Assembly: GCA_030631455.1 (NCBI GenBank)
Contig: DAOVLC010000010.1
Span: 1 to 11,487 of the forward strand
Length of the DNA: 11,487 bases
Reading direction: 5' to 3'
Source: Candidatus Zixiibacteriota bacterium
Lineage (GTDB): Bacteria > Zixibacteria > MSB-5A5 > JAABVY01 > JAHJOQ01
The translations under genes were made by a program, and so were the position numbers. Below the pieces are notes generated by a model, which saw nothing but the letters and a program-made list of their open reading frames with translations, ran no database searches and was not told the DNA's origin. Shown piece after piece: positions 2,524-11,487 of the stretch; positions within the stretch are counted from its first letter, which is position 1; each line of letters opens with the position of its first letter.

Positions 2524-5500
2524 ATGAGAAGTCGATTCATATTGATCGTAACACTTCTGCTGTCATTGATAGCATTATCCAGCGCTATGGCAGGTGAGAC
2601 ATATTTCAAGTTCGATGTCCAGTCGCGGGAAGAGATGATTAAACTCACGAAAGTGATTTCGATCGACAATGTCGTCGGTACTGAAGTGTATGCGTACGCG
2701 AACGATGAGCAACTGGCAAGATTTGAGAGCCTCGGTTACGCGTACACGGTACTTCCTCCCCCATCGACCCTCATCCAGCCGAAGATGACGACGGAAAAGA
2801 GCGGAATGAAGGACTGGGATGCATATCCGACTTATGACGCGTATGTCAGCATGATGTATCAGTTCGAAGCTGACTATCCACTTATCTGTGATGTTCAGAA
2901 CGTCGGTTTCACAGTGGAGGGGCGTGAACTTCTGTTTGCCAAGATTTCGGATAATGTCTATGTGGAGGAGAATGAGCCGGAGGTTATGCACACAGGCACG
3001 ATGCATGGCGATGAAACGGCCGGCTATGTGCTACTACTGAGATTGATCGACTCTCTTCTTGTCAGCTATGGTTCCGATCCCCGTATCACTGACATGATCA
3101 ACAACATGGAGGTATGGATTAACCCGAATGCGAATCCGGATGGTACCTATGCCGGCGGAAACAGCTCGGTATACGGTGCAACACGTTACAATGCGAATGG
3201 CTATGATCTGAATCGTAATTTCCCCGATCCTGAAGATGGTCCGTATCCTGGAGGTACGAGACAAACCGAAACGACAGTCATGATGGAACTCGCCGAAAAC
3301 AACCGCTTCATCATTTCGGCCAATTTTCACGGCGGCGCTGAGGTCATAAACTACCCGTGGGATACATGGAGTCAGAGACATGCAGATGACTCTTGGTGGA
3401 TAAATGTTTCAAGAGCGTACGCCGATACGGTTCACGACTACGCTCCAAGCAGCTACATGGATGGCTTCGACAATGGAATCACCAATGGATACGACTGGTA
3501 TTCCATAAATGGTGGACGTCAGGATTACATGACCTATTTCCGCGGAGGCCGCGAAGTGACGGCAGAGATATCGGGCACGAAGCTTCTCCCCGCAAGCCAG
3601 CTGCCGGCGCACTGGGAATACAACAAACGATCCTTGATCGACTGGCTCGAAAACGCACGTTATGGCATAACCGGACTCGTCACCGAGGTCTCTACCGGTT
3701 ATCCGGTTGATGCGACAATAACGGTAGTCGGCCACGACATCGATAGCTCCCGCGTTTTCACCGATCCTAATATTGGTGATTACCACCGCATGATTGATGC
3801 CGGAACGTATGATCTTGAATTCTCTGCACTCGGATATATCACACAGACGATTGAAGATATATATGTGTCAGCCGGTGGCACCGTGATACAGCATGTACAG
3901 ATGGAGCTTCTGCTCGACGAGCCGCTCCTGAGCTACGTGGGCAACGATGCCGGCCTAATCAATCCCGGAGATGCCGTCGCGATGCATATAACGCTCAGGA
4001 ACGACGGCGGAAAAAACGCGGACAATGTATCAGGTACCTTGTCTACCGCTGACACTCTTGTAACTATCACTCAGGACTTCTCGACGTTTCCCAATATCGC
4101 GAAATTGGGTGGCCAGGCTCCGTCAAACAATCTCTACATGTTCGACATTTCGCCGTCATGCCCGCTGATGCACTCAGCGGAGTTCGAGCTTTATGTCGAA
4201 GCAGACGGAGGATATGTCGATACTGTCACCTTCAATGTGATGGCTGGACAGCAGGTTGAGGATTTCGAAACCGGAGCGTTCGCACAGTACCCGTGGGAGA
4301 TGGGTGGAGATCAGCCATGGACCGCAGTTACATCCGGAGTATACGAGGGTGCTTATTGCGCAAAGTCCGGTGATATAGGCGACTACGACACATCGAGCGT
4401 ATTCGTAACTCTTGATATTACGTCCGGCGGTACGATTTCATTCTACTACAAAGTTTCATCCGAGTCCGGCTGGGATTACCTCGAATTCTTCATCGACGGA
4501 AGCAGAAAAGACAGGTGGTCCGGCGAGGTTGGATGGACTGAGGCGTCGTACTCGGTCACATCAGGCACGCATACATTCAAATGGCAATACATGAAAGATG
4601 GTAGTCAATCGAATGGTGGCGACTGCGGCTGGGTCGACTATATCATCTTTCCCGCCGCGACAGTGCCTATCGATATCACGACCGAATTCGTTCCTGACTG
4701 GACAATCGGAGTATTCTATTCTCAGCAGCTTGTAGCCTCAGGCGGCAGCGGTCAGCATACGTGGAGTGATCTTTATGGCGATCTCGACGGTACCGGGCTA
4801 TCGCTATCCACATCGGGACTACTTTCAGGCACCGCGACATCAACCGGCACGATCAGCTTCACCGCGCATGTCGAAGACAACGGCGGAGCTTCGGACGATC
4901 AGCCGTTCAGTTTTACGATGAACGCCGTTCCCGAGATAACGACTACATCCCTACCTGATTGGACCGAGGACTGGGCATATTCGACGCAGCTTCAATCGAC
5001 AGGCGGCACAGGTGTAAAAGGTTGGAGTGATTTGAACGATGATCTCGCAGGTACAGGACTGTCTCTGACTCACACCGGTCTGCTATCCGGTACGCCGGCG
5101 ACTGCCGGTACAATCAGTCTGACTGTTCATCTTGAAGATGAGGCTGGCGCCTATGATGAGCAACCGTTCAGCTTCTCGATCAACCCGCCACTCGAAATAA
5201 CTGCGACGTCTCCTCCCGATTGGACCGCCAGCGTCCCGTATTCGGCTCAGCTTCAGGTTACCGGTGGTACAGGCACGATGATCTGGAGCGATCCGAACAA
5301 CCATCTGTCCGGAACCGGGCTTTCGCTGTTATCGAGTGGGCTGCTGTCAGGCATACCGAATACTCCGGGTCTGATCAACTTCACGGCGCATATCGATGAT
5401 GAGATCGGAGCATATGACAATCAGCCATTCAGCTTCACGATCAACCCGGCGCTCTCAATCACCACGCTCTCCCTTCCATCCGCGACGGTCGACGAACCGT

Positions 5501-5922
5501 ACTCCGAACAGCTCGAAGTTACTGGCGGCACAGGTGACAAGGTCTGGAGCGATCTGAACGATGATCTTGTCGGGACGGGATTATCCCTGTCAACCACAGG
5601 ACTTCTCACTGGCATACCATCGTCTGAGGGCTCGATCAGCTTTACGGCACGTGTCGAAGATGAGATTGGAGCTGATACGCAAGCACCTCTCTCTATAGAA
5701 GTAGGGCACAGCTGGATATGCGGCGACGCAAACGCCTCTACGGAGATCGATATCGACGACGTGGTTTACTTGATTGCGTACGTATTCTCTGGTGGCCCGG
5801 CCCCCGAGCCTCTGGAGTCGGGTGATGTTGATTGCACGGGCGAGATAGACATCGACGACGTTGTCTATGTGATCCAATACATATTCGCAGGCGGCCCCGC
5901 CCCATGCGCTGACTGCCCGTAA
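2524..5922 (+). CDS. Secreted M14 zinc carboxypeptidase with Ig-like repeats and C-terminal dockerin
   Basis: This 1132-residue protein is complete. A signal peptide spans residues 1-23 (probable cleavage A23/G24), followed by a pro-region-like segment (~25-88). The M14 peptidase domain (~100-375) shows zinc ligands H161 and E164 (HGDE) and H269 (NFHGG), the substrate-binding N230-R231 (DLNRNF), and probable catalytic E348 in VTAEIS, so it should be an active metallocarboxypeptidase. Next are a carboxypeptidase regulatory-like domain (~380-462), a CARDB-like beta domain (~465-575), a MAM-like jelly roll (~579-713), four He_PIG-like Ig repeats (718-~1062) and a two-loop dockerin (1066-1132). 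In the first dockerin loop the usual Gly at position 6 is Thr. An AGAAGGTGA ribosome site lies just before the ATG. It probably degrades peptides outside the cell while docked to a partner, together with the upstream protease; the exact substrate is unknown. Confidence 0.93.
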   Translation: MRSRFILIVTLLLSLIALSSAMAGETYFKFDVQSREEMIKLTKVISIDNVVGTEVYAYANDEQLARFESLGYAYTVLPPPSTLIQPKMTTEKSGMKDWDAYPTYDAYVSMMYQFEADYPLICDVQNVGFTVEGRELLFAKISDNVYVEENEPEVMHTGTMHGDETAGYVLLLRLIDSLLVSYGSDPRITDMINNMEVWINPNANPDGTYAGGNSSVYGATRYNANGYDLNRNFPDPEDGPYPGGTRQTETTVMMELAENNRFIISANFHGGAEVINYPWDTWSQRHADDSWWINVSRAYADTVHDYAPSSYMDGFDNGITNGYDWYSINGGRQDYMTYFRGGREVTAEISGTKLLPASQLPAHWEYNKRSLIDWLENARYGITGLVTEVSTGYPVDATITVVGHDIDSSRVFTDPNIGDYHRMIDAGTYDLEFSALGYITQTIEDIYVSAGGTVIQHVQMELLLDEPLLSYVGNDAGLINPGDAVAMHITLRNDGGKNADNVSGTLSTADTLVTITQDFSTFPNIAKLGGQAPSNNLYMFDISPSCPLMHSAEFELYVEADGGYVDTVTFNVMAGQQVEDFETGAFAQYPWEMGGDQPWTAVTSGVYEGAYCAKSGDIGDYDTSSVFVTLDITSGGTISFYYKVSSESGWDYLEFFIDGSRKDRWSGEVGWTEASYSVTSGTHTFKWQYMKDGSQSNGGDCGWVDYIIFPAATVPIDITTEFVPDWTIGVFYSQQLVASGGSGQHTWSDLYGDLDGTGLSLSTSGLLSGTATSTGTISFTAHVEDNGGASDDQPFSFTMNAVPEITTTSLPDWTEDWAYSTQLQSTGGTGVKGWSDLNDDLAGTGLSLTHTGLLSGTPATAGTISLTVHLEDEAGAYDEQPFSFSINPPLEITATSPPDWTASVPYSAQLQVTGGTGTMIWSDPNNHLSGTGLSLLSSGLLSGIPNTPGLINFTAHIDDEIGAYDNQPFSFTINPALSITTLSLPSATVDEPYSEQLEVTGGTGDKVWSDLNDDLVGTGLSLSTTGLLTGIPSSEGSISFTARVEDEIGADTQAPLSIEVGHSWICGDANASTEIDIDDVVYLIAYVFSGGPAPEPLESGDVDCTGEIDIDDVVYVIQYIFAGGPAPCADCP
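4675..5706 (+). repeat. Four tandem 261-bp Ig-like (He_PIG type) domain repeats
   Basis: Repeats begin at residues 718, 805, 892 and 979 of the M14 protein (bases 4675, 4936, 5197, 5458), each exactly 87 codons from the last; the fourth is slightly shorter and runs into the dockerin linker. The shared pattern is I-T-x-x-x-x-P, then Y-S-x-Q-L, x-G-G-[ST]-G, W-S-D, G-T-G-L-S-L, G-L-L-[ST]-G, and a final strand with D-x-x-G. This is the putative-Ig family pattern in which bacterial surface proteins build stalk-like spacers. Confidence 0.9.
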
Positions 5923-5951
5923 GGTTGAAGAGTCGCATATTCTTGACAATT

Positions 5952-5982
5952 AGGGGGGCCTGGATGATCAAGGCTCCCTTTT
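5952..5982 (+). terminator. Rho-independent terminator after the protease genes
   Basis: About 30 bases after the M14 stop codon, 5952-5961 can pair with 5971-5980 (G-rich arm against GGCTCCC) with one or two G-T wobbles and a 9-base loop, followed directly by a TTTT run. It separates the protease block from the membrane cassette. No energy calculation was done. Confidence 0.7.
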
Positions 5983-6083
5983 CATCTCTGAGAATATCAA
6001 ACTGGTTCACTTCGAATCCATTTTCGAGCCTTGTCTAAACCGTTTCCACGCAATCGCCGAACTCCATAAGACGGCCGATTTGG

Positions 6084-6096
6084 GGTTTGACAAACC
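6084..6096. promoter_or_regulatory. 13-nt perfect palindrome over the -35 element, possible operator
   Basis: GGTTTGACAAACC is a perfect inverted repeat with 6-base arms around a central A. It overlaps the -35 box of the proposed promoter, so a dimeric regulator bound here would block transcription. It is short, and no second copy was noticed in the window. Confidence 0.3.
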
Positions 6097-6114
6097 ATAT
6101 TCTCGGCATATCTT
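6087..6114 (+). promoter_or_regulatory. Sigma70-type promoter for the membrane cassette
   Basis: A perfect -35 TTGACA (6087-6092) is followed after 16 bases by TATCTT (6109-6114), which matches the -10 consensus at four of six positions. Transcription would start near 6121, just ahead of the GAGGAGG ribosome site (6128-6134), giving a leader of about 18 bases. It lies downstream of the terminator, as expected for a new transcription unit. The -35 sits inside a palindrome (listed separately). Confidence 0.5.
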
Positions 6115-6138
6115 ACCGATGCGGTTTGAGGAGGCCTT

Positions 6139-6771
6139 ATGTCATCGTTTCTGAGCAAACAATTACCTATGGCAGTTGCGTTTTTTGCCGGGTTTGTCAT
6201 GATCGTTGCCTTTTTCTCCGGCAATGCCTTCATCTCATGGTTTTCCCAGCAGCAGTTGAAATGGATCACGATTGTGGGTGGATTCGCGCTGCTTCTCGGA
6301 GTCGCGTCGATAACCCGCGTATCGCTTGCCCACGTAAGGCAGAGAAAAACTAACTGGCCGTACAAGGTTGTGCTGCTGGCATTCCTGACCGTATCATCCG
6401 TATTTGCCATCTTTCAGGGGACAGAACAGGGGACAGTCTACGACTGGCTTTTCCAGAACATGAACGCCCCGATGATGTCGACAATGTTCTCCATGCTGGC
6501 GTTTTTTATCGCGTCAGCCGCATATCGTGCGTTCAGGGCGAGAACTTTGGAGGCGACAATATTGTTAATAACAGCGACGATTGTTATGCTTGGCCGAGTG
6601 CCGTTGGGTCGTGCTATTTTCAGTTACCTTCCCCAGGTTACGGACTGGATTATGAATTATCCCAACCTCTCAGTACAACGTGGGATAATCATTGGTGCGG
6701 CCCTCGGCGCGGCCAGCATGTCTCTTCGGATAATTCTCGGCATAGAGCGAACATATCTGGGGAGGTCATAG
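6139..6771 (+). CDS. Uncharacterised six-helix membrane protein (cassette protein A)
   Basis: This 210-residue protein has about six hydrophobic segments (roughly residues 10-30, 41-60, 74-92, 107-127, 133-152, 180-198) and no signal peptide or soluble domain, so it is an integral inner-membrane protein. Polar stretches between helices look conserved in character: YDWLFQNMNAP, AAYRAFRARTLEAT, MLGRVPLG, and a C-terminal SLRIILGIERTYLG. From memory it resembles hypothetical proteins of Zixibacteria-like and other candidate phyla, but I know no family with a function. The ATG is set by GAGGAGG at 6128-6134. Only three bases separate its stop from the next gene, so the two are probably translated together. 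No transporter motif or enzyme signature was seen, so no function is proposed. Confidence 0.88.
   Translation: MSSFLSKQLPMAVAFFAGFVMIVAFFSGNAFISWFSQQQLKWITIVGGFALLLGVASITRVSLAHVRQRKTNWPYKVVLLAFLTVSSVFAIFQGTEQGTVYDWLFQNMNAPMMSTMFSMLAFFIASAAYRAFRARTLEATILLITATIVMLGRVPLGRAIFSYLPQVTDWIMNYPNLSVQRGIIIGAALGAASMSLRIILGIERTYLGRS
6759..6765 (+). promoter_or_regulatory. Ribosome binding site fixing the TTG start of cassette gene B
   Basis: GGGGAGG lies nine bases before TTG at 6775, inside the last codons of gene A. No ATG or GTG is better placed, so TTG is the probable start. Confidence 0.75.
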
Positions 6772-6774
6772 AGT

Positions 6775-7602
6775 TTGGCCTCCCGATTCCTGCGTATTAT
6801 CACTAATATAGACAGAAGGGTCATCTATGCGGCTGTATCTCTGTCTGTCGTTGCGCCCCTGATATTCAAATTCCCGATGCCGATCTCCATCTCACCGGAA
6901 ACAGTAACTCTTTACGAAAGGGTGGAGGCCATCCCGGACAGTTCGACTATCATACTTACGTTCGACTATTATCCCTCAACGCTCGCCGAGACTGAACCGA
7001 TGTCGATCGCGGCTCTCAATCAATGCTGGCGAAAGGACCTGAAGATCATCACCCTCTCGACAGTCGGGCTCGGCGGTCCCAGTATAGCAGACCGGGTGAT
7101 GGCGACTATGGCTGAGCAGTTCGGGAAAGTGTATGGAGTCGATTATGTCAATCTCGGATATAAGGCCAATTATCAGGCTGTGCTCCTCGGACTCGGCAAA
7201 TCGATCAGATCGATTTATCCTACCGATTTCTACGGCACTCCGCTCGATTCGATTCCAATTATGCGGGGAATCGACAACTATGAAGGTGTAGAGTTTATAT
7301 TCATCGTATCGGATAACACAATTGTCGACTTTTGGGTCGGCCTGGTAAATGCTCAATACGGCACCGAAATGGGAGCAGGAGTCACTGCTGTGATGGCGCC
7401 GAAGTTCTACGCCTACGTAAGAGCCGATCAGTTAGTCGGTCTACTTGGCGGAATGAAGGGCGCAGCAGAATACGAGGAGCTGGTAGGGGCCGTTGGTATG
7501 GCTACAACAGGCATGGGCGCACAATCGATGGTGCACTTGATGATCATATTCTTCATCATAATGGGCAACATCGCTTACTTCATCGGTCGAAGGGAAAAAT
7601 GA
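6775..7602 (+). CDS. Uncharacterised protein anchored at both ends with an alpha/beta-like central domain (cassette protein B)
   Basis: This 275-residue protein starts at TTG, chosen because GGGGAGG (6759-6765) lies nine bases upstream. A hydrophobic segment near residues 18-33 and a C-terminal helix (~251-270, followed by GRREK) bracket a soluble region of about 210 residues. That region alternates hydrophobic strands (STIILTFDYYP, DLKIITLSTVG, GVEFIFIVS) with helices, as in Rossmann-like or other alpha/beta folds. Other striking stretches are GLGGPSIADRVM, YGVDYVNLGYKANYQAV, FYGTPLDSIPIMRGIDNY, and LVGLLGGMKGAAEYEELVG. I recall similar hypothetical proteins but no characterised one. Its stop overlaps the next start by four bases (ATGA), so it belongs with genes A and C. 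By the positive-inside rule the central domain may face outward, but that is inference. Confidence 0.88.
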   Translation: MASRFLRIITNIDRRVIYAAVSLSVVAPLIFKFPMPISISPETVTLYERVEAIPDSSTIILTFDYYPSTLAETEPMSIAALNQCWRKDLKIITLSTVGLGGPSIADRVMATMAEQFGKVYGVDYVNLGYKANYQAVLLGLGKSIRSIYPTDFYGTPLDSIPIMRGIDNYEGVEFIFIVSDNTIVDFWVGLVNAQYGTEMGAGVTAVMAPKFYAYVRADQLVGLLGGMKGAAEYEELVGAVGMATTGMGAQSMVHLMIIFFIIMGNIAYFIGRREK

Positions 7603-8246
7603 GCGAGAGCCTGGTCAACTTCCTCCAAGTCAGCGTCGCCGGGTTCCTGACCCTGTGTATATTCTCCTTTCTATACAAGGACAACCCCTTCTACAGGCTC
7701 GCGGAACATATCTACGCCGGACTGTCAGCCGGTTACTACGTCGGACTCATATGGCACGCTGTGATCTTACAGCAGTTGTGGATGCCAATCACCCGCGATG
7801 GCGAATACACCCTACTGATACCGGGAATCATGGGCGTTCTCCTGTTCACGCGGTTGACCGAGAAGCTTTCGTATGTGTCCCGTGTTTCCATCGCATTCGT
7901 TATGGGCAATACCGCCGGGATATCGATCATGCAGCAGTTGCATGGCTATGTGCTTCCTCAGACGGGCGACACCATAAGCGGACTGCTCGGCGCGGGAAGC
8001 TGGTTCGCAACACTTGGCGCATGGATCATCTTCGTCGGAGTAATCTCTACCCTGATATATTTCTACTTCTCCAAGGAACATAGAGGGATATTCGGGGCCA
8101 CTGCACGCGTCGGGATTGTATTTATTATGATCTCATTCGGCGCGCATTTCGGATACACGGTCATGGGGCGCGTGTCGCTCCTGATAGGCAGAATCCGGTT
8201 CCTGATGTTTGACTGCGTCGACAGCTTCAAGCATCTCATAAATTAG
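7599..8246 (+). CDS. Uncharacterised polytopic membrane protein (cassette protein C)
   Basis: This 215-residue protein starts at the ATG that overlaps the stop of gene B (ATGA), with AAGGGA at 7590-7595 upstream. The frame is open further upstream (from 7332), but that stretch lies within gene B, so the short start is correct. About six hydrophobic segments are visible (near residues 8-22, 36-55, 68-84, 92-108, 130-153, 165-185). The N-terminal motif LYKDNPFYRLAEHIYAGLSA is the most distinctive part: charged and aromatic residues right after helix 1 suggest a functional site or subunit interface. A segment with GNTAGISIMQQLHGY follows mid-protein. I recall similar hypothetical proteins but no known function. 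Its overlap with gene B suggests coupled translation and perhaps one complex. Confidence 0.87.
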   Translation: MSESLVNFLQVSVAGFLTLCIFSFLYKDNPFYRLAEHIYAGLSAGYYVGLIWHAVILQQLWMPITRDGEYTLLIPGIMGVLLFTRLTEKLSYVSRVSIAFVMGNTAGISIMQQLHGYVLPQTGDTISGLLGAGSWFATLGAWIIFVGVISTLIYFYFSKEHRGIFGATARVGIVFIMISFGAHFGYTVMGRVSLLIGRIRFLMFDCVDSFKHLIN

Positions 8247-8294
8247 TTGCAAAGCAGGGGCCAAGAGTATATCATTGTCCTTTGATGTATTCCT

Positions 8295-8300
8295 GGGAGG
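8295..8300 (+). promoter_or_regulatory. Ribosome binding site fixing the TTG start of the nucleotidyltransferase
   Basis: GGGAGG lies seven bases before TTG at 8308. The family normally starts within a few residues of the strand VIIPAAG, which agrees with this start rather than the TTG at 8275. Confidence 0.75.
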
Positions 8301-8307
8301 TTTCGCA

Positions 8308-9288
8308 TTGAAAGTGATTATTCCTGCGGCAGGCGTGGGTACCAGACTGAGACCGCATACACACAGCGCTCCCAAGGCGCTCCTCTATGTCGCAGGCAAA
8401 CCGATTCTCGCCCACATCGTCGATCAGGTAGTCCAGCTCAATCCGTCGGAAGTAACGATCATCGTCGGATTTCTGGGTTCTCAGATTGTTGACTTCGTGA
8501 AGAGAGAGTACGATCTGAACGTCAGATTTGTCGAGCAAAAAGAACTTCTCGGGCTTGGATACGCGATTCTCTTGGGGATCGAACCGGGAGAAACCGAAGA
8601 TCTCCTCGTAATTCTCGGAGATACGATTGTCGAAACCGACTGGCAGGGCCTGCTCGGTCGCAATCAGAATGTCTTGGGCGTAAAAGAGGTTGATGAGCCG
8701 CAGAGATTCGGCATTGTTGAGGTTAAGGGCACCAGAATCACATCTATCGTCGAAAAACCGGAGAACCCTAAATCGAACCTCGCCGTTGTCGGAGTGTACT
8801 ACATCAAGGATACCATGGCGCTCCGCAATGCGTTAGAGGAAATATACAATAATGGAATCAGAACAAAAGGCGAGATTCAGGTGACCGATGCGATACAGCT
8901 TCTTCTCGATAATGGAGTCGAGCTGCACGCTGTTTCGATCGATGGGTGGTATGATTGCGGCAGAAGAGAGACCATGCTTCAAACCAACAGACACTTGCTC
9001 GCGAATCATACTGACAAGAGAGAAAACAGTGACCACCCTGAAAGTGTCTTGATTCCGCCGGTTTATGTAGCACCTGATGCAGTGATTGAAAGATCGATAA
9101 TCGGCCCGGATACATCCGTAGCGGCCAGATGTGTGATCAGGAATTCCATCATAAGAGATTCGATAATATCGGCAGGCGCGCACGTCGAAGACGCAAGGCT
9201 TATGTCTTCTCTCATTGGCAACAACGCTGTGGTCAATGGATCGTTCAAAATACTCAACGTTGGAGACTCGTCTGAGATAAGTTATTAG
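8308..9288 (+). CDS. Sugar-1-phosphate nucleotidyltransferase with left-handed beta-helix tail
   Basis: The 326-residue protein joins a sugar-1-phosphate to a nucleoside triphosphate, giving an NDP-sugar for glycan synthesis and pyrophosphate. The N-terminal GT-A-type domain shows the pyrophosphorylase signature AAGVGTRLRP with APKAL, the metal-site Asp in ILGD (D105), the VEKP motif (E149-K150) and a late Asp in GWYDCG (D216). The tail (~250-320) carries hexapeptide-like repeats (VYVAPDAVI, SIIGPDTSV, SIISAGAHV) expected to form a left-handed beta helix, as in long RmlA-like and GlmU-like enzymes. No acetyltransferase assignment is justified. Sequence cannot settle the nucleotide or sugar; glucose-1-phosphate with dTTP is a common annotation for relatives. 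The TTG start is preferred because GGGAGG (8295-8300) lies seven bases upstream and the protein then begins directly with MKVIIPAAG. An earlier TTG at 8275 adds 11 residues without such support. It lies 61 bases after the membrane cassette and 51 before metK. Confidence 0.9.
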   Translation: MKVIIPAAGVGTRLRPHTHSAPKALLYVAGKPILAHIVDQVVQLNPSEVTIIVGFLGSQIVDFVKREYDLNVRFVEQKELLGLGYAILLGIEPGETEDLLVILGDTIVETDWQGLLGRNQNVLGVKEVDEPQRFGIVEVKGTRITSIVEKPENPKSNLAVVGVYYIKDTMALRNALEEIYNNGIRTKGEIQVTDAIQLLLDNGVELHAVSIDGWYDCGRRETMLQTNRHLLANHTDKRENSDHPESVLIPPVYVAPDAVIERSIIGPDTSVAARCVIRNSIIRDSIISAGAHVEDARLMSSLIGNNAVVNGSFKILNVGDSSEISY

Positions 9289-9339
9289 GGGCGTTTCGCT
9301 GCCGTAAATTCTCGTGGTCTTTCAGTACAGGGAGGTATT

Positions 9340-11487
<2,148 letters not shown>

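Follow-up and report, generated by a model that had tools for sequence, protein, structure and literature searches.

The described systems closest to the locus considered here resemble it in parts. DUF6754 (PF20539) is a family for which Pfam supplies a domain name only. The MutL/GlmL proteins (Pfam PF13941; NCBIfam NF040745, NF040744 and TIGR01319) carry two phosphate motifs, the Rnf/Nqr and Mrp complexes contain several small polytopic subunits, and Sir2, CODH epsilon and other Rossmann-like domains have a three-layer alpha/beta architecture. In this work we have analysed a stretch of 11,487 nucleotides from Candidatus Zixiibacteriota bacterium (assembly GCA_030631455.1, contig DAOVLC010000010.1; hereafter the window), which is a complete contig (C23) of a genome of 2.16 Mb in 427 contigs that is 79% complete. 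An earlier note, made from the sequence of the window alone, had proposed that three adjacent genes, here called A, B and C, constitute an undescribed three-gene membrane system. The genes are uncharacterised and conserved, they keep their synteny across phyla and their members diverge together; however, the system is larger than three genes. The trio makes up A-B-C of a cassette of four genes, D-A-B-C, in which D carries DUF6754, and which is accompanied by at least two further genes, M and E, and often by another two, S and T. D belongs to PF20539, whereas A, B, C, E and the arrangement of the cassette fall outside that family.

Gene order and joint divergence of the cassette

The three genes are real, far beyond chance, because 1740 proteins match B at E <= 0.001; among the 120 matches listed from the protein database, those bearing an organism name are hypothetical proteins, nearly all from Zixibacteria. 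Our sample comprised 288 genomes, of which 132 belong to the phylum and 156 do not; in it B, D and E were counted at E <= 1e-3 and M only at E <= 1e-100; A and C were sought only in the loci that were fetched. The genome of the window has six matches to B, two of them partial at contig ends, and D precedes A at all four other A genes found in it. Outside the phylum one locus was fetched per D-positive genome, and a second set of 79 named loci came from the best 80 matches of a single scan. The search for co-occurrence of the trio that the earlier note had recommended found A-B-C behind D, in this order and across phyla, at 36 of the 40 outside loci and at 80 of the 85 D genes of the named loci for which 3.5 kb or more of downstream sequence was available. 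The other 32 of the 117 D genes, with a shorter downstream stretch, were left out; the 117 include one gene counted in two frames, in L104. As for the other four outside loci, one has D-A-B and no recognised C (L033), two have D alone (L047 and L050), and in L027 the contig ends after A, in a frame that we take for an extended front part of B.

In the window A, B and C lie in order on one strand, and no DUF6754 gene stands directly upstream of A. A short D lacking the fibronectin part is found on another contig of the same genome (C420, L071), where it overlaps a gene of the phosphoglucose isomerase type. In the sister genome G096 the matching D is located at C37:7605-8471, and A-B-C follow on that contig at a distance of about 10 kb, separated from it by other genes. 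Because the D of this paralogue sits elsewhere in these two genomes but directly before A in other families of the phylum (L055, L058 and L062), the window shows a split cassette. Cassettes have also undergone internal duplications: D occurs twice in tandem in L034 and L055, and four B genes stand at one locus, L042. Furthermore, two B fragments of the window's genome, at the ends of two contigs (L007 10775-11083 and L009 2-691), cover different parts of the protein, so that contigs C290 and C252 may adjoin and hold an array of three cassettes behind M and E.

Paralogous cassettes diverge as units. The distance matrices of the four cassette members showed correlations of 0.74-0.84 over 106 cassettes, compared with at most 0.61 in 200 shufflings of the cassettes within the 26 loci that hold at least two (58 cassettes). 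Five of 111 cassettes, with identical B, and members covering less than 80% of the model were excluded, and a few genomes enter this set twice, as a sampled genome and as a named locus. Linkage and duplication alone could give the same joint divergence. We consider it very probable that D, A, B and C form a physical complex.

Probable partner genes of the cassette

Further candidate partners were found by clustering the neighbours of the cassettes. E, of about 375 residues, adjoins D, and M, of about 600, adjoins E. The fullest operon, T-S-M-E-D-A-B-C, is present in L015, L023, L029, L032, L035, L044 (with M in two frames), L118, L122, L134, L142 and L158, and at most other loci M and E stand away from the cassette. 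T and S, two small proteins, matched no family at the threshold used. At seven loci of the Zixibacteria type (L063, L113, L128, L133, L138, L140 and L155) M and E are separated by a gene for a protein of some 250 residues whose start is signal-like, possibly a further component.

E was detected in 160 of the 288 genomes, 123 of the 132 of the phylum and 37 of the 156 outside it. All of these 37 are among the 40 D-positive outside genomes and none among the 116 D-negative ones. M was detected in 156 genomes, 120 of the phylum and 36 outside (35/40 D-positive and 1/116 D-negative, G217). These counts are uncorrected for kinship, the 156 outside genomes representing 153 families, and the M of the window's own genome is uncounted because a contig end truncates it to a fragment (L009). 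Both genes mostly give one match per genome, which is better accommodated by a service module shared among several D-A-B-C sets than by a fixed subunit. Two more D-negative genomes, G223 and G284, have a weak B; together with G217 they could hold diverged or broken systems. It is likely that M and E are functional partners of the cassette.

M is an ASKHA ATPase of the MutL family (PF13941, E 6e-130; 434.4 and 400.5 bits for the two M scanned, against a cut-off of 27) and carries both phosphate motifs, DCGSTTTK and DIGGATTD. It differs from the described MutL/GlmL proteins in its length (about 600 positions against 459), in its coupling to a membrane cassette and in scoring below all three NCBIfam GlmL cut-offs (best of the two M, 231.8/475, 217.8/600 and 177.9/204.05 bits). 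E is barrel-sandwich-like; one of the two E scanned gave a weak biotin/lipoyl match and a sub-threshold RnfC-like one, and its lipoyl-like hairpin has no invariant lysine, as read from the alignment. Membership of PF13941, whose named NCBIfam relatives we take to be accessory proteins of amino-acid mutase pathways, would fit M and E acting as a GlmL-type chaperone that reactivates a soluble B12 enzyme, the link to D-A-B-C being one of operon convenience. We regard this as very unlikely, since apart from the low NCBIfam scores no mutase gene was recognised by eye among the neighbours inspected, and M and E track D across lineages and in many of them share one operon with it.

Predicted folds, topology and possible functions

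The earlier note had described A and C as polytopic and B as anchored at both ends with an alpha/beta domain between. Hydropathy averaged over the alignments agrees for A and C, and for B hydropathy and an AlphaFold model concur: the model (pLDDT 93.3, pTM 0.88) places the alpha/beta domain at about residues 38-240, between helices 14-31 and 242-274. According to the positive-inside rule this domain would lie outside the cytoplasm. The three motifs singled out in that note fall within strongly conserved parts, and in C positions E36 and R191 are invariant and N29, Q121 and R198 nearly so (166-row alignment).

Its statement that no transporter, protease or glycosyltransferase motif explains the trio also stands, as no Pfam or NCBIfam family scored above cut-off in A, B or C of the window. 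Among their relatives (31 A, 87 B and 32 C) family matches were sporadic, the commonest being Acyl_transf_3 in 3 of the 31 A (best E 1.8e-05). Sequence searches of the PDB with the profiles of A, B, C and M gave no match, that of D matched only through its Fn3 part, and that of E gave weak matches resembling KOW or RNA polymerase beta'. PADLOC gave no anti-phage defence match at E <= 0.01 for a single copy of each of A, B, C, D, E and M, and Rfam gave no match at gathering thresholds. With regard to Rnf/Nqr and Mrp, the likeness goes beyond the several small polytopic subunits to the RnfC barrel-sandwich match of E and a weak match of A to the Na+/H+ antiporter subunit G, but these scores are far under the cut-offs and no flavin, iron-sulfur or antiporter subunit was recognised.

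D is assigned to DUF6754 with 327-415 bits against a cut-off of 27 in all four own-genome copies scanned. Twenty of its polar or charged positions are nearly invariant, and the invariant residues include GRATEMG, AESLxLAETG and CDYTLxGEEL. In predicted structures B and D have a three-layer architecture that may be the one of Sir2, CODH epsilon and other Rossmann-like (DHS-like) domains; they have no sequence match to these and no known ligand motif, and are membrane-anchored at both ends. Homology between B and D was searched for by sequence and none was found.

The invariant residues of D could also be the cytosolic active site of a membrane-bound enzyme complex, for instance one for redox or group-transfer reactions in lipid or envelope metabolism. 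We consider this unlikely: no cofactor motif or catalytic family is present in A, B and C of the window, Rossmann-like domains on opposite sides of the membrane are unusual for a single enzyme, and the genomic contexts vary between paralogue groups. Another alternative is suggested by the length of D, which varies between 258 and 975 aa (some copies contain Fn3), by the several paralogues per genome, and by the presence of RCK/KtrA-like folds among the fold matches of D (a comparison confined to the families listed by VIA-align). D-A-B-C might then be a transmembrane sensor, with a ligand bound by the outer portions of D and B and the signal relayed to M and E by D's cytosolic domain. Moreover, a gene of about 280 residues directly after C in WOR-3/Stahlbacteria (L116, L117, L143 and L145) seems similar to DUF4388/PATAN regulators, and we count it on the same side. 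Nevertheless, no output domain such as a kinase, a cyclase or a transcription factor was found in the scanned cassette genes, and a sensor appears quite improbable to us.

The reading that we favour, though with slightly less than even confidence, is that D-A-B-C is a membrane complex served by a shared ATPase module and coupling a ligand event across the membrane. A, B and C would be three of its four subunits, with A and C as the polytopic core; the highly conserved DUF6754 domain of D would face the cytosol, and its often present fibronectin-like part, located ahead of the first membrane helix, would presumably be outside, the side assigned to the similarly folded domain of B. The several paralogous complexes of a genome would have one cytosolic module in common, consisting of M as the ATPase and E as a barrel-sandwich-like adaptor, and M with E may spend ATP to activate, load or assemble each D-A-B-C; we give such ATP-dependent activation about even odds. 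The complex would couple a ligand event at one side of the membrane to the opposite side, most likely by transporting a small molecule or an ion through A/C, and transport in place of sensing or catalysis is a somewhat tentative assignment. A machine coupling ATP and a ligand to a transmembrane event would agree with the ATP motifs of M, with the twenty nearly invariant positions of D and with the charges conserved in A and C. Whether this amounts to a new class of energy-using machine, in which sirtuin/CODH-epsilon-type domains are opposed across the membrane and substrate-specific versions built on two new polytopic families share a single ASKHA ATPase and adaptor, is a more doubtful proposal, which we put forward with caution.

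Neighbouring genes, identified in part by eye and, beyond those scanned with Pfam, named tentatively, do not settle the function, and their contexts vary by paralogue group. What we take to be ABC sugar transporter genes stand beside L056, L059, L064 and L072. Presumed Tol-like genes follow E in L063, L133 and L155, only the first of them in L140 and none in L113. The operon comes after what seems to be a gcvP-like (glycine-cleavage) gene or before a presumably lipoate-ligase-like one (L158, L118, L122 and L134; L029, L109 and L142).

Distribution and significance

Each of the 132 sampled genomes of the phylum has DUF6754 (4-6 matches in 111 and 1-3 in 21), as do 40 of the 156 genomes outside it; none of 14 control genomes has it. 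B was found in 131 of the 132 and in 41 of the 156, of which 39 are also D-positive. In G000 and in 13 genomes with better assemblies the numbers of B and D match or nearly match (2-6), the largest difference being that of G106, with three B against five D matches, some of the latter fragmentary. The cassette occurs in about a dozen bacterial lineages, with loci in Zixibacteria, Cloacimonadota, Latescibacterota, Eisenbacteria, Coatesbacteria, Stahlbacteria/WOR-3, Effluviviaceae, Neomarinimicrobiota/Marinimicrobia, Riflebacteria and Gemmatimonadota, and in single bins labelled Caldithrix, Planctomycetaceae and Puniceispirillum (the last label is doubtful).

An outlier with a weak D, G190, prompted a search of Chloroflexota, in which D was found in 34 of 121 genomes and B in 33, all within those 34 (0/87 of the others). 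The matches bear the names Chloroflexales, Roseiflexaceae, Kouleothrix and Viridilinea. The overlapping loci of G298 and G306 show the order (T)-S-D-A-B-C-M on a single contig, and in L170-L174 M comes after C, with a weak match in L171. In this phylum B is extended by a long N-terminal stretch (L160, L163 and L169-L174), which would agree with an N terminus in the cytosol. WLR motifs recur in the frame after A in L027, and open frames that contain B are up to about 1500 residues long. The initial impression that G190 has no B was discarded, as the narrow model A1 had missed a B that the wider model A2 detects. We also rejected the idea that the system is linked to a diderm envelope, to which Tol-like genes beside M-E in some Zixibacteria had led, since Chloroflexota carry the system too. 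A test with Omp85 cannot discriminate, because this protein is present in 147 of the 156 outside genomes (39/40 D-positive and 108/116 D-negative).

The presence of D in every sampled genome of the phylum, mostly in several copies, and in a good part of the other genomes suggests that the function is likely basic. If the proposed machine exists, it would be a basic cell part in Zixibacteria and standard in about one in four of the remaining lineages sampled, many Chloroflexota included. DUF6754 and MutL are the only named families in the system, and literature searches, mostly without subscription journals, found no paper on DUF6754 or PF20539 and nothing on the cassette; we rate its parts and their arrangement as new. 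With one DUF label and three of the four membrane subunits matching no family in our searches, the annotation of these environmental bacteria misses a whole membrane system. Moreover, MutL-type ATPases gain a possible membrane-linked role, and the Chloroflexota relatives may put the system within reach of cultured organisms.

Features and neighbouring genes of the window

The gene coordinates (Table 1) are those given before, including the 3-nt gap between A, whose stop ends at 6771, and B, whose TTG start lies at 6775, and the 4-nt overlap of the ATG of C at 7599 with the stop of B, ending at 7602. The earlier note had also placed a terminator and a promoter-like site ahead of A. The hairpin exists, at about 5952-5980, but it is weak evidence because 20 of 200 shuffled sequences fold equally well or better (-17 kcal/mol, z -1.45), and a pattern scan of 5850-8400 did not report it. 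The promoter match is likewise present, although such sites arise in shuffled sequences too (5 in 5850-8400 against a mean of 3.3, sd 2.0).

Table 1. Positions of the trio and of adjacent features in the window
Feature	Position	Strand	Description
Terminator-like hairpin and short T run, 3' of the M14 peptidase gene	5952..5983	+	weak
Sigma-70-like promoter match	6087..6114	+	TTGACA-16-TATCTT, 10 of 12 positions
Gene A	6139..6771	+	210 aa, about six membrane helices; conserved S126, R130, R133, R181, E203, R204
Gene B	6775..7602	+	275 aa; N-terminal membrane helix, Rossmann-like domain, C-terminal membrane helix
Alpha/beta domain of B, residues 38-240	6886..7494	+	conserved D64, E72, D123, D151, Q219, E234
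Gene C	7599..8246	+	215 aa, about six membrane helices
Nucleotidyltransferase gene (NTP_transferase)	8275..9288	+	after C in the window-type paralogue group

Downstream of C (8275-11485) the nucleotidyltransferase gene is followed by those for S-adenosylmethionine synthetase (metK) and S-adenosylhomocysteine hydrolase (ahcY). The same three genes come after C in L055, L068, L069 and L070, a synteny of the window-type paralogue, and the nucleotidyltransferase is probably a neighbour rather than a subunit. Upstream, positions 1-2394 encode a large, probably secreted protein with thrombospondin type 3 repeats and a sub-threshold dockerin-like tail (22.4 bits against a cut-off of 22.9), and positions 2524-5922 an M14 carboxypeptidase with He_PIG domains, also large and probably secreted, whose end resembles that dockerin-like tail by eye.
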